From Rhodocyclaceae bacterium (GTDB lineage Bacteria; Pseudomonadota; Gammaproteobacteria; Burkholderiales; Ga0077523): 64,000 nt of DNA. Position 1 is the first letter of the stretch, and each line of letters begins with the position of its first letter. Below are positions 39,974 through 63,671 of this stretch, piece by piece. Both the position numbers and the translations under genes were made by a program. The notes under the pieces were generated by a model, which worked only from the letters and a program-made list of their open reading frames with translations, ran no database searches and had not been told where the DNA came from. The DNA is taken from contig JADCHQ010000001.1 in the NCBI GenBank assembly GCA_020248405.1, positions 62,001-126,000 on the forward strand, read 5' to 3'.

Positions 39974-40423
39974 TTACTCCGAAGCAGGCATCTTCTCGAT
40001 CTGCCCCACCAGCTTGAGGAGCTGGCGGTGCAGCTTGGCAAAGCGCGCGTGCTCCGCCTTCCACTTGGCGTGCTTCGTACCCATTTCCTGATGCTTCCTG
40101 TCGAGCTCGGGACTGGCCTGACCCGCCGCCAGGGCAGCCTCGTGGGCCTTGATGGCTTCATCGTGAGCCTGCATGTCGCTCTCGTGTTCGGCAATCATCC
40201 TGTCGTGTGCTTCCACCAGCCCGGCGAGTTTCTTCACGGCCGCCTCCACGCGGTCGTGATCCTTGTGGAGCGCCTCGTGCCCCGCCTTCCAGGTGGCGTG
40301 CTCCTTGGCCCACGCCTGATGCTCCCGCGCCATGGCGGCAGCATCGCCGGCAAACCCCGCGGGGGATGCGGACAGGCCGGCGGCCAACGCCAGGATTGCG
40401 AAGCTGTTCTTCATCGTCGTCAT
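39974..40423 (-). CDS. periplasmic heptad-histidine repeat protein (unknown function)
   Basis: A 149-residue protein with a signal peptide (about residues 1-26, SASPAGFAG) and a wholly helical, highly charged mature part. Thirteen histidines occur, twelve of them in three sets of four spaced exactly 7 residues: 35/42/49/56, 73/80/87/94 and 111/118/125/132. The sets are offset by 38 residues, so the protein is three 38-residue repeats (35-72, 73-110, 111-148) plus one residue. Repeats 1 and 3 also share W-K-A spacing. Each helix would show a stripe of four histidines. I do not recognise a family. Metal binding is inferred. The ATG at 40423 has AAGGAGATCGAG upstream; an ATG three codons later is possible. 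Confidence 0.85.
   Translation of the reverse strand: MTTMKNSFAILALAAGLSASPAGFAGDAAAMAREHQAWAKEHATWKAGHEALHKDHDRVEAAVKKLAGLVEAHDRMIAEHESDMQAHDEAIKAHEAALAAGQASPELDRKHQEMGTKHAKWKAEHARFAKLHRQLLKLVGQIEKMPASE
39980..40321 (-). repeat. three in-frame 114-bp repeats encoding the His-heptad units
   Basis: Units at 40208-40321, 40094-40207 and 39980-40093 encode residues 35-72, 73-110 and 111-148. The unit pattern is His-x6-His-x6-His-x6-His followed by 16 residues before the next His. The DNA has diverged; periodicity is kept at the protein level, which suggests selection on histidine position. Confidence 0.75.
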
Positions 40424-40574
40424 CTCGATCTCCTTGGAAAAACGGACGGGCGCTGCAGTTCAGCGCAGATGCGCTGGGTTGCACCTGTAACAAAGTACTG
40501 CGTCCCGCCCGCAACCGGATTGATCCCCGTCAATAGGAGCCCGTATGCAGCGACAGGCGTTGCGTGGCGGTGGA

Positions 40575-50535: not shown

Positions 50536-50864
50536 GGGCCAGGGCCAGGGGGGAGCGATCGAGCGCGGGAGTGCCCCTCTTCGGGGCCATGTGAGGCTTA
50601 TACCGAAACAGGGCGGCTTGCCTCAAGGCCGCGGGATTCCGGTCCGCAGCCGGGAATATCTCCCGATGCGGCAGCCAGGGCCGCGCTCCTGCCGCCCCCG
50701 AGGCGTGAAGCGGGAGAATTTCCCGGCCCAGCGCGGGAATCCGGCTTGCCGCTCCCGGCACCCGCACCGAATACCCTTCCGGCCTTCAGAAGAAGATGCG
50801 CTGCCGCCGTTGTGGCGGCACGCGCAGTCATCGCCTCGATCCCAAACCGCCCGAGAGCCTCCTC
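50536..50864. promoter_or_regulatory. divergent control region with a symmetric CGGGA operator array
   Basis: Between the kinase and the TonB receptor lie two palindromes, CGGGAATATCTCCCG (50651-50665) and CGGGAGAATTTCCCG (50711-50725), 60 bp apart centre to centre. They are flanked by CGGGATTCCGG (50632-50642) and CGGGAATCCGG (50734-50744). A TCCCG half lies at 50753-50757. The kinase promoter TTGAGG-N18-TATAAG (minus, 50597-50626) puts its nearest palindrome near -68. A weaker TonB promoter (TTGCCG at 50746-50751, AATACC at 50770-50775) puts the other near -64. This looks like a shared binding array for the NarL-type regulator. No B12 or other riboswitch is seen. Confidence 0.6.
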
Positions 50865-53237
50865 ATGCGTCCAGCCCCCACCCGCCTGACCCGCAGCGCC
50901 ATTTCCGCCGCCGTAGCCGCCGCCTTCGCCGGCCCCGCCGTAGCCGACAACGACCGCCCGGCCACCCTCGAAGCCCCCACCGTCAAGGTGATCGGCGTCA
51001 CCCCGCTGCCCGGCGTGGGCTTGCCGCTCAACAAGGTGCCCGGCAACGTGCAGACCCTCACCGCCAAGGACGTGCAGCAGCAGCAGGCGGTGGGTCTGCC
51101 GGATCTCATGACCACGGCGCTGCCCTCGGTCAACGTGAACGACGTGCAGGGCAACCCCTTCCAGCCGGATGTGAACTACCGCGGCTTCACCGCCTCGCCG
51201 CTGCTGGGGCTGCCCCAGGGCCTGTCGGTGTTTCAGGACGGCGTGCGCATCAACGAGCCCTTCGGCGACGTGGTGAACTGGGCGCTGGTGCCCATGGATT
51301 CCATCAGCACCATGAATGTCATCCCCGGCTCCAATCCGCTGTTCGGCCTCAACACCCTGGGCGGCGCCCTGTCGCTGCGCACCAAGAGCGGTTTCCAGTT
51401 CCCCAACACGGCCTTCGAACTGTCCGGCGGCAGCTGGGGGCGGGCCAACGGCAAGTTCGAACACGGCGGCTACAGCGGCAACAAGGACTACTACATCGCC
51501 GGCAACTGGTTCAAGGAAGACGGCTGGCGACAGTTCTCTCCCTCCGACGTGAAGACCTTCTTCGCCAAGAGCGGCTGGCAGGATGGCCGCACCGACCTGG
51601 ACGTGTCCCTCACCCTGGCCGACACCAACCTCACCGGCAACGGCGTGGCACCCCAGAGCTTCCTGGAGCAAAGCCGCAACCGCATCTTCACCCAGCCCGA
51701 CCAGACCATCGCCCGCATGGCGATGCTCAACTTCACCGGCAGCCACTGGCTCAATGACACCGACAACCTGCAGGGAAATGTGTATGTGCGCGGCACGCGC
51801 ATCCGTACGCTGAACGGCGATGCCAACGACGGTTTCGAGGGGGGGGCCTTCGACGGCGACACGGCTGCCGTCGACGGCGGCCTTTGCCCGGGCGCCGGGT
51901 GCAACACCGAAACCGGCGCCAACAACCGCTCGCGCACCAACAGCCGCTCCTTCGGTGCCAATCTCCAGTGGACGCGCGCGGTGCAGAACAACCAGTTCAC
52001 CTTCGGCGGCAGCTACGACAACGCCCGCGCCGACTTCCGCTCTACCCAGACTCTGGGTGTCATCAACGCCGACCGGGGCGTGACCGAGACCAACGCCACC
52101 ACCGACGAGGCGGCCCTCATCGGCCGCACCGTCACCTCCAGCCTGTTCCTCACCGACACCTGGACCTTCCGGCCCAACTGGCACCTCACCGGCTCGGCGC
52201 GCTACAACTACACGCGGGTGAAGAACAACGACACCCTCAACCCCGGCGTGGCGGGCAACCTGGACGGCAACTACGTCTACCCGCGCCTGAACCCCGCCGT
52301 GGGCCTGAACTGGACCCCCTCCGACGCCCTAACTCTGTACGGCACGGTAAACCAGGGAAACCGCGCGCCCACGCCCATCGAGCTGGGCTGCGCGGACCCA
52401 GCCAACCCGTGCCGCCTGCCCAACGCCATGGCCGCCGACCCCTTCCTCAAGCAGGTGGTGGCCACCACGGTGGAGGTGGGCGCACGCGGCATGTTCAACG
52501 ACTGGCTGGGCTACAGCTCGGCGCTGTTCCGCACCGTCAACCGCGACGACATCCTGTTCGTGAGCACCACCACCAGCGCCGGCTTCTTCACCAACTTCGG
52601 CCGCACCCAGCGCGAAGGCATCGAGCTCGGGCTCACGGGGGCCAAGGGCCGGTGGGATTTCCGCGCCAACTACACCTACCTGCGGGCCACCTTCGAATCC
52701 GAGGCCGACCTGCTGGCCGAAAACAACTCTTCCCGCGGCTTCGGCGGGGTGGCCGCGGACGACCAGATTCGCGTCCGGCCCGGCGACCGCATTCCCGGCA
52801 TGCCCCAGCACCAGTTCCGCATCAACGCCAACTACCGCCTCACCGACGCCTGGAGCGTCGGCGCCAACGTGATCGCCATGACCGGGGTATACGCCCGCGG
52901 CAACGAGAACAACCAGCACCAGGCCGGGACCGTGACCGACCCCATCGGCGGGGATACGCGAACCTTCAACGGCGCGGGCAAGACCTCGGACTACGCCGTG
53001 CTGAACCTGGTGACCAACTACAAGCTCACCTCCCAGTGGCAGCTCTTCGGGCGCATCAATAACGTGTTCGACAACCGCTTCAACACCGCCGCCATCCTGG
53101 CCGAGAATCCCTTCAATGCCGCGGGCGTGTTCCAGACCAACTCCGGGGATTGGGCCCGCGAAACCTTCTACGGCCCCGGCGCGCCCCGGGCCGCCTGGAT
53201 CGGCGTGCGATACTTCCTCGAACGCCAGCCGCGCTGA
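50865..53237 (+). CDS. TonB-dependent outer-membrane receptor
   Basis: A 790-residue receptor with a signal peptide (residues 1-27, ending PAVAD). The plug domain (GNVQTLTAKDVQQQQAVGLPDLM, YRGFTASPLLGLPQGLSVFQDGVRINEPFGD) matches the FecA-like layout, and a 22-strand barrel follows. A TonB box could lie near APTVKVIGV. A pair of Cys in a loop (CPGAGC) may form a disulfide. The substrate is unknown: siderophore, metal chelate or another large solute. It is divergent from the two-component genes and followed 46 bp later by a periplasmic beta-propeller, likely one operon. The ATG at 50865 is the only start with a signal peptide. Confidence 0.9.
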   Translation: MRPAPTRLTRSAISAAVAAAFAGPAVADNDRPATLEAPTVKVIGVTPLPGVGLPLNKVPGNVQTLTAKDVQQQQAVGLPDLMTTALPSVNVNDVQGNPFQPDVNYRGFTASPLLGLPQGLSVFQDGVRINEPFGDVVNWALVPMDSISTMNVIPGSNPLFGLNTLGGALSLRTKSGFQFPNTAFELSGGSWGRANGKFEHGGYSGNKDYYIAGNWFKEDGWRQFSPSDVKTFFAKSGWQDGRTDLDVSLTLADTNLTGNGVAPQSFLEQSRNRIFTQPDQTIARMAMLNFTGSHWLNDTDNLQGNVYVRGTRIRTLNGDANDGFEGGAFDGDTAAVDGGLCPGAGCNTETGANNRSRTNSRSFGANLQWTRAVQNNQFTFGGSYDNARADFRSTQTLGVINADRGVTETNATTDEAALIGRTVTSSLFLTDTWTFRPNWHLTGSARYNYTRVKNNDTLNPGVAGNLDGNYVYPRLNPAVGLNWTPSDALTLYGTVNQGNRAPTPIELGCADPANPCRLPNAMAADPFLKQVVATTVEVGARGMFNDWLGYSSALFRTVNRDDILFVSTTTSAGFFTNFGRTQREGIELGLTGAKGRWDFRANYTYLRATFESEADLLAENNSSRGFGGVAADDQIRVRPGDRIPGMPQHQFRINANYRLTDAWSVGANVIAMTGVYARGNENNQHQAGTVTDPIGGDTRTFNGAGKTSDYAVLNLVTNYKLTSQWQLFGRINNVFDNRFNTAAILAENPFNAAGVFQTNSGDWARETFYGPGAPRAAWIGVRYFLERQPR

Positions 53238-53283
53238 GTTGTCTCTAGCGGTGGCCGGTAACCACCACGAGGATCACTTCACC

Positions 53284-54225
53284 ATGAAACGCCTCCTGCC
53301 CGCGCTCGCCGCGGGCTTTTTCTGCGCCCTGCAGGCGGCAGCCGCCCCCCTGGCCTACGTGGCCAACGAAAAGTCGGGCACCATCTCCATCATCGACACC
53401 GCCACCGACGAGGTGGTGGGCACCATCAAGGCGGGCACCAAGCCCCGCGGCCAGGCTGTGGGTGCGGACGGCCGCACCCTGTACGTGAGCGACCAGCCCG
53501 CCAACGCCCTGCTGGTGGTGGACCTGGAGAAGCGAGCCGTGGCCGGCACCATCGACCTGGGCGAATCGCCCGAGGGCGTGAGCCGCTCGCCCGACGGCAA
53601 GTGGGTGGTGGTGGCGGTGGAGATGAGCAACAGCGCCGCCTTCATCGACACCGCCTCGGGCCGCAAGCTGTTCAATATCAAGACCCGCGGCGAGAATCCG
53701 GAGCACGCCGTGTTCAGCCCCGACGGCCGCTGGCTGTATGTGAGCGCCGAGGAGGCCGACCAGGTGGACATCGTGGACGTGGCCGCACAGAAGCAGGTGG
53801 CGGCGGTGAAGGTGGCCAAGCGCCCGCGCGGCATCGCCTTCCTGCCCGACGGATCGCGCGCCTATGTGGCCTGCGAGTTCGACAGCAAGGTGTTTGCCAT
53901 CGACGTGGCCACCCAGAAGGTGGTGGCCGAAATCAAGGCGGGCACCTTCTCCAACGGCGTCGCGGTCCACCCCGACGGCAAGCGCGTGTACGTGTCCAAC
54001 GGCAAGGACGCCAGCGTGTCGGTCATCGACACCGCCACCAACACGGTGAGCGCCACCATCGCCGTGGGCAAGCGCCCCTGGAACATGGCCATCACCCCGG
54101 ACGGTACCAAGCTTTACGTGGCCAACGGCAGGGATAACTCCGTGAGCGTTATCGATACGGCCACGAACCGCAAGTTGAGAGACATTCCCGTGGGCGAGAT
54201 CCCCTGGGGGGTGGTGATCCGCTGA
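53284..54225 (+). CDS. periplasmic YVTN/YncE-type beta-propeller
   Basis: A 313-residue protein with a signal peptide (residues 1-20, QAAAA). About seven repeats of the YVTN type follow, seen as YVANEKSGTISIIDTAT, YVSDQPANALLVVDL, YVSAEEADQVDIVDV, YVACEFDSKVFAIDV, YVSNGKDASVSVIDT and YVANGRDNSVSVIDT. YncE-like propellers are often co-expressed with TonB receptors, and some bind metals or DNA. Position behind the receptor suggests it handles or senses the same ligand in the periplasm. The ATG at 53284 follows GAGGATCACTTC. Confidence 0.9.
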   Translation: MKRLLPALAAGFFCALQAAAAPLAYVANEKSGTISIIDTATDEVVGTIKAGTKPRGQAVGADGRTLYVSDQPANALLVVDLEKRAVAGTIDLGESPEGVSRSPDGKWVVVAVEMSNSAAFIDTASGRKLFNIKTRGENPEHAVFSPDGRWLYVSAEEADQVDIVDVAAQKQVAAVKVAKRPRGIAFLPDGSRAYVACEFDSKVFAIDVATQKVVAEIKAGTFSNGVAVHPDGKRVYVSNGKDASVSVIDTATNTVSATIAVGKRPWNMAITPDGTKLYVANGRDNSVSVIDTATNRKLRDIPVGEIPWGVVIR

Positions 54226-63603: not shown

Positions 63604-63671
63604 GGGGGGCAGTGTAGCCCTCCACCGGCCTTGATCGGCGTCAATCGCCACCGCCCCGCGCACCCCGTACC

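Follow-up and report, generated by a model that had tools for sequence, protein, structure and literature searches.

A putative periplasmic coiled coil lined with heptad-spaced histidines in a Rhodocyclaceae bacterium and its distant relatives

What is the role of a small, probably exported protein whose histidines recur at seven-residue steps? The question is raised by a gene on the minus strand (39974..40423, stop codon included) of the window, by which we mean the whole 64,000-nucleotide stretch of DNA analysed here. The gene encodes 149 residues from an ATG start, which lies 6 nt after a ribosome-binding sequence, AAGGAG (40430-40435, minus strand), and it is present as a single copy in its own genome. 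The first 25 residues (MTTMKNSFAILALAAGLSASPAGFA; 40349..40423, minus strand) read as a putative Sec signal peptide, and the mature part probably starts at about residue 26; the counterpart of this N-terminus in the close homolog described below is MKSHLCLSFLLAVGVALSSTAQA. A direct count finds 13 histidines, at positions 35, 42, 49, 53, 56, 73, 80, 87, 94, 111, 118, 125 and 132, and no cysteine. The preliminary description of the locus had given twelve of these positions correctly, leaving out His53, and the exact offset of 38 residues that it reported is confirmed for 35-73-111. The mature part contains nine His-His pairs separated by 7 residues, a number that none of 100,000 composition-preserving shuffles reached (maximum 7). 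The heptad spacing of the histidines is thus far from chance.

Two uninterrupted heptad registers run through the protein, from residue 31 to 98 and then from 107 to 143. In helix 1 (residues 31-66; 40226..40333, minus strand) His35/42/49/56 occupy the 'a' positions and M/W/W/L/V/L the 'd' positions. In helix 2 (residues 67-98; 40130..40225, minus strand), which is continuous with helix 1 in the models, the histidines 73/80/87/94 are found at 'd' and V/I/M/I/L at 'a', and in helix 3 (residues 107-143; 39995..40105, minus strand), antiparallel to helix 2, His111/118/125/132 are again at 'a', with M/W/F/L/I at 'd'. The loop between helices 2 and 3 (residues 99-106, A-AGQAS-PE; 40106..40129, minus strand) absorbs nearly all the length variation of the relatives. 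The heptads are Hxx[W/L]xxE-like, their a/d positions being filled by His and large hydrophobics: all 31 a/d positions carry VILMFWY or His, against 6 of the 74 other positions, and 12 of the 13 histidines lie on a/d, the register having been set from the histidines themselves (His35 = 'a'), so that the p-value of this core pattern is only indicative. As 'a' layers face 'd' layers in antiparallel packing, the a/d/a pattern of the histidines in helices 1/2/3 would pair His with His and hydrophobic with hydrophobic. As far as the sequence goes, the earlier proposal that the histidine stripes face the core appears borne out by their heptad positions.

Is this pattern shared by other proteins? A close homolog exists in 1 other genome among 399 of the order (G002, locus L025), on a contig that matches the metagenome-assembled genome Betaproteobacteria bacterium Ga0077526. 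The two proteins are 59% identical, and all 13 histidines are identical as against 77 of 123 mature positions (P = 0.0015). A profile made from these two proteins matches distant relatives from further families within the class (E 1e-10 to 1e-4), and its iteration brought in about 20 distant relatives, sporadically distributed in other Pseudomonadota. The family is found in 14/369 genomes of the class and in 6/398 of the phylum sample (the window's own genome being counted in each), and no relative was found in the plasmids, phages and viral contigs searched. The signal peptide is missing in most of the distant relatives. Most of the weak profile matches among loci L013-L024 were set aside as seemingly unrelated, being long coiled coils, repeats or matches in a wrong frame. 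A control profile built without the window's two proteins gave the window protein 47.9 bits (E 9e-13 in 10,000 sequences). The remaining scores above 18 bits, 43 and 25, belonged to ORFs from loci brought in by the family search, and the best clearly unrelated ORF reached 18 bits. Nevertheless, 6.7% of register-preserving shuffles of the window protein score as high as the protein itself, and shared descent with the distant relatives is therefore only partly separable from shared heptad composition. One genome (G557) carries two tandem copies of the family (L071, 8391-9505), both with Asp instead of His42, and in another locus (L060, 1072-1893; G999) about 125 residues of another helical-looking stretch precede the histidine-heptad domain.

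The histidines are very unequally kept among the 22 members of the family, in which W38 and W45 are invariant (22/22). His87 and His111 are each found in 20 members, His118 in 19, His42 and His125 in 18, His80 in 14 and His132 in 13, down to His35 (8), His56 (3) and His49 (2); His35, 49, 56, 73 and 94 are each kept in less than half of the members, and Tyr often takes the place of His94 and His132. The expectation that homologs would conserve the spacing thus holds for the close homolog, which keeps all 13 histidines, and only in part for the distant relatives, which retain 4-10 of the 12 and nearly all lack the second offset of 38 residues. Four complete layers of three histidines (His3 layers) are accordingly special to two genomes.

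The offset of 38 had led to the view of a three-repeat protein, which proved a poor description. When the histidines were set aside, the 38-residue units were not clearly more alike than shuffles for the pairs 1-2 (p=0.33) and 2-3 (p=0.59), with a weak likeness between units 1 and 3 (p=0.04; 0.036), and an origin by three-fold repetition was rejected. Furthermore, the first offset is retained across the family and the second is absent in nearly all distant relatives. In these, additional residues separate helices 2 and 3, and the second offset is lost because this loop varies in length.

How are the histidine stripes brought together? For each possible register we counted, sequence by sequence, the inter-helix histidine pairs over the 22 members. 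Co-occurrence peaks at i+j=129 between helices 1 and 2 (29; next best 20 and 15) and at i+j=205 between helices 2 and 3 (47; next 38 and 35). The margins are moderate, since shifts to an adjacent heptad are also common by construction and the window's two proteins add to the counts of all layers. The four layers proposed in the preliminary description (35/94/111, 42/87/118, 49/80/125 and 56/73/132) are exactly these peaks, and by keeping to this layer logic the relatives strengthen the original observation. Moreover, His35 is associated with His94 (7/8 vs 2/14; Fisher p=0.0015, uncorrected for the 32 tests and for kinship), an association between aligned positions that supports the register i+j=129. 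Most widespread is the layer 42/87/118, whose histidines are present in 18, 20 and 19 of the 22 members. One histidine per helix in the same core layer fits both the register and the co-occurrence, and going by the register the three histidines of a layer would be co-located.

Two AlphaFold2 predictions, both run without templates and resting on 1-2 sequences, gave the same layout. With a two-row alignment a helix spans residues 22-99 and a second one residues 105-143 (pLDDT 77, pTM 0.50), and the mature protein alone scored higher (pLDDT 86, pTM 0.54). In a structure search the predicted residues 62-142 matched antiparallel hairpins, such as the SerRS arms, at 1.3-1.8 Å; these were generic hairpins only, no entry standing out and PDB 5LOS not being among the matches listed. 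The loop of this hairpin, at residues 100-104, coincides with the midpoint of i+j=205. For i+j=129 the midpoint is 64.5, within a conserved, indel-free stretch: the helix is unbroken through residues 64-65 in both predictions, and no relative has an indel near these residues. Since this midpoint lies in an unbroken, conserved helix, the partners of helix 1 are most likely helices 2 and 3 of a second chain, and the single-chain three-helix bundle originally envisaged is not supported by the predictions. The most likely arrangement, which we infer from the register and the models, is an antiparallel dimer with its two-fold axis at residues 64-65, each half forming a three-helix rod; such a dimer would yield the same His3 layers as the single-chain bundle. 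In many of the distant relatives, a Pro close to position 71 might introduce a kink into the long helix.

These considerations lead to a tentative reading of the whole locus, which we prefer while giving it a little short of an even chance. The heptad core pattern, the conservation, the co-occurrence register and the helices were computed, secretion, dimerization, metal binding and regulation being inferred. The product would be a secreted (periplasmic) alpha-helical coiled coil whose core layers alternate His with Trp/Leu/Ile/Phe. Its long helix (about 28-99) would be followed by a short one (105-143) folded back on the second half of the long helix, and two chains would pair antiparallel, with helix 1 of each packed alongside helices 2 and 3 of its partner. 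This pairing would create three histidines per layer, one per helix segment, and four layers per half. By analogy with designed His3 sites, and following the hypothesis of the authors who described the histidine zippers (see below), metal binding may be proposed first: the layers might bind or buffer divalent transition-metal ions (Zn, Cu, Ni or Co) in the periplasm, and the gene might be expressed at low oxygen from an FNR-type promoter. A bolder version, which we consider unlikely, sees a three-helix rod, formed by an antiparallel long-helix/short-helix pair, in which tris-histidine metal sites are stacked. The site 42/87/118 would be ancestral, the window's lineage would have as many as four sites per half, and these might be catalytic, in the manner of a carbonic anhydrase, and not just store metal. 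If true, such a family would be a natural counterpart of the designed His3 metalloproteins.

Other arrangements of the same histidines have to be weighed. Four stacked His3 sites in a single-chain antiparallel three-helix bundle would agree with the co-occurring layers, and the designed single-chain three-helix protein GRa3D is among the top weak PDB profile matches (E=0.008). However, such a bundle requires a turn at the KK of residues 64-65, in the middle of a hydrophobic stretch (59-70) that is conserved and in which helix and alignment are unbroken. Moving the turn to the 'LP' of the relatives (about 70-71) would imply a register of i+j ~136-138, for which few co-occurring pairs were counted (12, 1 and 4). 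We consider this fold rather unlikely. We find it quite improbable that the histidine zipper is limited to the intra-chain hairpin of helices 2 and 3, acting as a metal sponge while helix 1 serves partner binding or oligomerization. The pairing of helices 2 and 3 is indeed the best supported contact, and His49 and His56 of helix 1 are among those rarely conserved, but His42, W38 and W45 of the same helix belong to the most conserved residues of the family and His35 associates with His94 of helix 2.

The histidine core might also work without any metal, as a pH- or anion-responsive element in which protonation opens the coiled coil, and we regard this as doubtful yet far from negligible. Buried histidine layers can serve pH response, and at acid pH, about 3-6.5, a sharp disassembly is seen in designed trimers and filaments that bury six or nine histidines (PMC11286511). 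Two such designs, pRO-2.3 and pRO-2.5, also turned up as structural neighbours of the predicted hairpin, though only as a common arrangement. In the designs pRO-2 and DpHF, however, the six or nine buried histidines of a three-subunit helical bundle are held in His-Asn-Thr hydrogen-bond networks (PMC11286511), each histidine having Asn/Thr partners which the window protein lacks, its His-His layers being flanked by Trp/Leu. Moreover, relatives have Tyr instead of His at positions 94 and 132, as reported for the histidine zipper 'Nitro', and this suits metal ligation or aromatic packing at least equally. That the whole pattern is an artefact of chance or composition in a His-rich, GC-rich ORF is barely conceivable: the region is covered by alternative-frame ORFs, but the close homolog with its 59% identity and its full set of histidines, the ribosome-binding sequence and a spacing beyond that of all shuffles speak against it, and conservation rules it out.

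With which known systems can the preferred histidine-layered dimer be compared? It had been thought that no described family has this plan, which is true for Pfam and NCBIfam, whereas proteins of the same kind have been described as 'histidine zipper coiled coils' (PMC8616854). In Pfam the window protein reached at best 17.9 bits for a cut-off of 32.7 (23.6 being the cut-off of the second match), and in NCBIfam 17.6 for a cut-off of 567. Eighteen family members scanned against Pfam had isolated weak matches, none belonging to a family, and the five relatives tested against NCBIfam did not reach a cut-off. Altogether the Pfam, NCBIfam and PDB sequence searches returned weak coiled-coil matches only. 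Small, periplasmic, helical metal proteins are known from the ZraP/CpxP (LTXXQ) and CnrX-like sensor families, none of which matched the window protein in Pfam up to E=10. Copper storage proteins (Csp) are four-helix bundles lined with Cys, and as the window protein has no Cys this identity was excluded.

The histidine zippers described by Hartmann and Lupas are His-rich antiparallel hairpins that form antiparallel homodimers, with intra- and inter-chain histidine interfaces (PMC8616854). Their crystal structures were the CASP14 targets T1083 (Nitro), T1084 (Meio) and T1087 (Tuna), and their first representative was PDB 5LOS, the Serendipita indica protein PIIN_05872/Dld1, with which the known zippers share only 15-23% identity; metal-ion scavenging is the authors' hypothesis (PMC8616854). 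The study of 5LOS, judging from its title as cited in PMC8657640 and PMC9610748, reports metal-ion homeostasis. Like the window family, histidine zippers have regularly spaced histidines in antiparallel helical hairpins and some histidines replaced by Tyr, and the hairpin predicted here carries what characterizes them, histidines at 7-residue steps in an antiparallel hairpin. They are short, however, with 71-93 residues modelled, whereas the window protein adds an extra helix segment. A 73-residue protein encoded on plasmid pMESIL01 of Allomeiothermus silvanus, MESIL_RS16785, fits Meio by organism, length and composition and is presumed to be that protein (D7BIZ4). It is built of Ala-rich HHxxAAx heptads, in contrast to the single His per heptad and the Trp/Leu/Ile layers of the window protein. 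No similarity was detected between this presumed Meio and either the window protein (BLASTP E=7.6) or the family profile (probability 0.3%), and 5LOS was not listed up to E=1 when the profile was compared with PDB sequences; this test of a sequence relation is weak because of the low identity of the known zippers with 5LOS. The window protein thus resembles histidine zippers and may work like them, and comparison with 5LOS and one presumed representative leaves membership unsupported by sequence. The family is undescribed, and its architecture is a different one for histidine-lined coiled coils, a kind that is already known. A TatA/TatE family gene begins 15 bases after MESIL_RS16785 on the same strand (L082, 1031-1474; pMESIL01 130530-130973), in a possible operon.

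Histidine-lined coiled coils occur naturally, and as to their function those who solved the crystal structures could offer no more than speculation about metal scavenging. Among the designed His3 metalloproteins, GRW-H is a three-stranded coiled coil, and alpha3DH3 is reportedly a single-chain three-helix de novo design (Cangelosi 2014, cited in PMC13262294); in both, every helix contributes one His to a single His3 core layer. The window protein differs in being natural and in having up to four proposed three-His layers, which by analogy with the designs may bind metal; Zn or Co is bound by three-stranded coiled coils designed to carry one His on each helix (PMC13262294). Should the layers bind metal, nature would offer a parallel to the His3 coiled-coil enzymes made by design. 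The family, short, with a well-defined conserved layer and about 22 sequences, includes members with one to four complete His layers, which provide an internal comparison for metal binding.

As for expression, an FNR/ANR-like box (TTGAC-GGGG-ATCAA; 40520-40533, minus strand) lies upstream of the gene and matches TTGAT-N4-ATCAA at 9/10 positions (shuffle p=0.001). A weak -10-like sequence, TACTTT (40492-40497, minus strand), is found 29.5 bases downstream of the centre of the box, a class II-like distance by the spacing rules of FNR, and no sigma-70 promoter pair was scored there. FNR-like sites occur twice in the 64-kb window against 0.04 expected, the second one (TTGATCGGCGTCAA; 63631-63644) being near the probable start of queG (epoxyqueuosine reductase). 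The box was rejected as a family-wide feature, since a 9/10 match is found only for the window gene and L060, where it reads TTGATATAGGTCAA.

No metal genes were found among the neighbours in the window, which encode a DUF2339 protein, a 3-hydroxyisobutyrate-dehydrogenase-like enzyme, a glycerate-kinase-like DUF4147/MOFRL protein and glycolate-oxidase-like subunits, and no partner gene recurs throughout the neighbourhoods of the relatives. Some relatives (L032, L069, L031, L068, L033, L034, L036) lie near genes for cation P-type ATPases, CorA, CbiM, DUF389 and BON-domain proteins and phosphoketolase, and their neighbourhoods look like stress or fermentation islands common to distant genomes. 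Elsewhere in the window, at 50796-54225, a TonB-dependent receptor gene is followed by a gene for a YncE-like beta-propeller.
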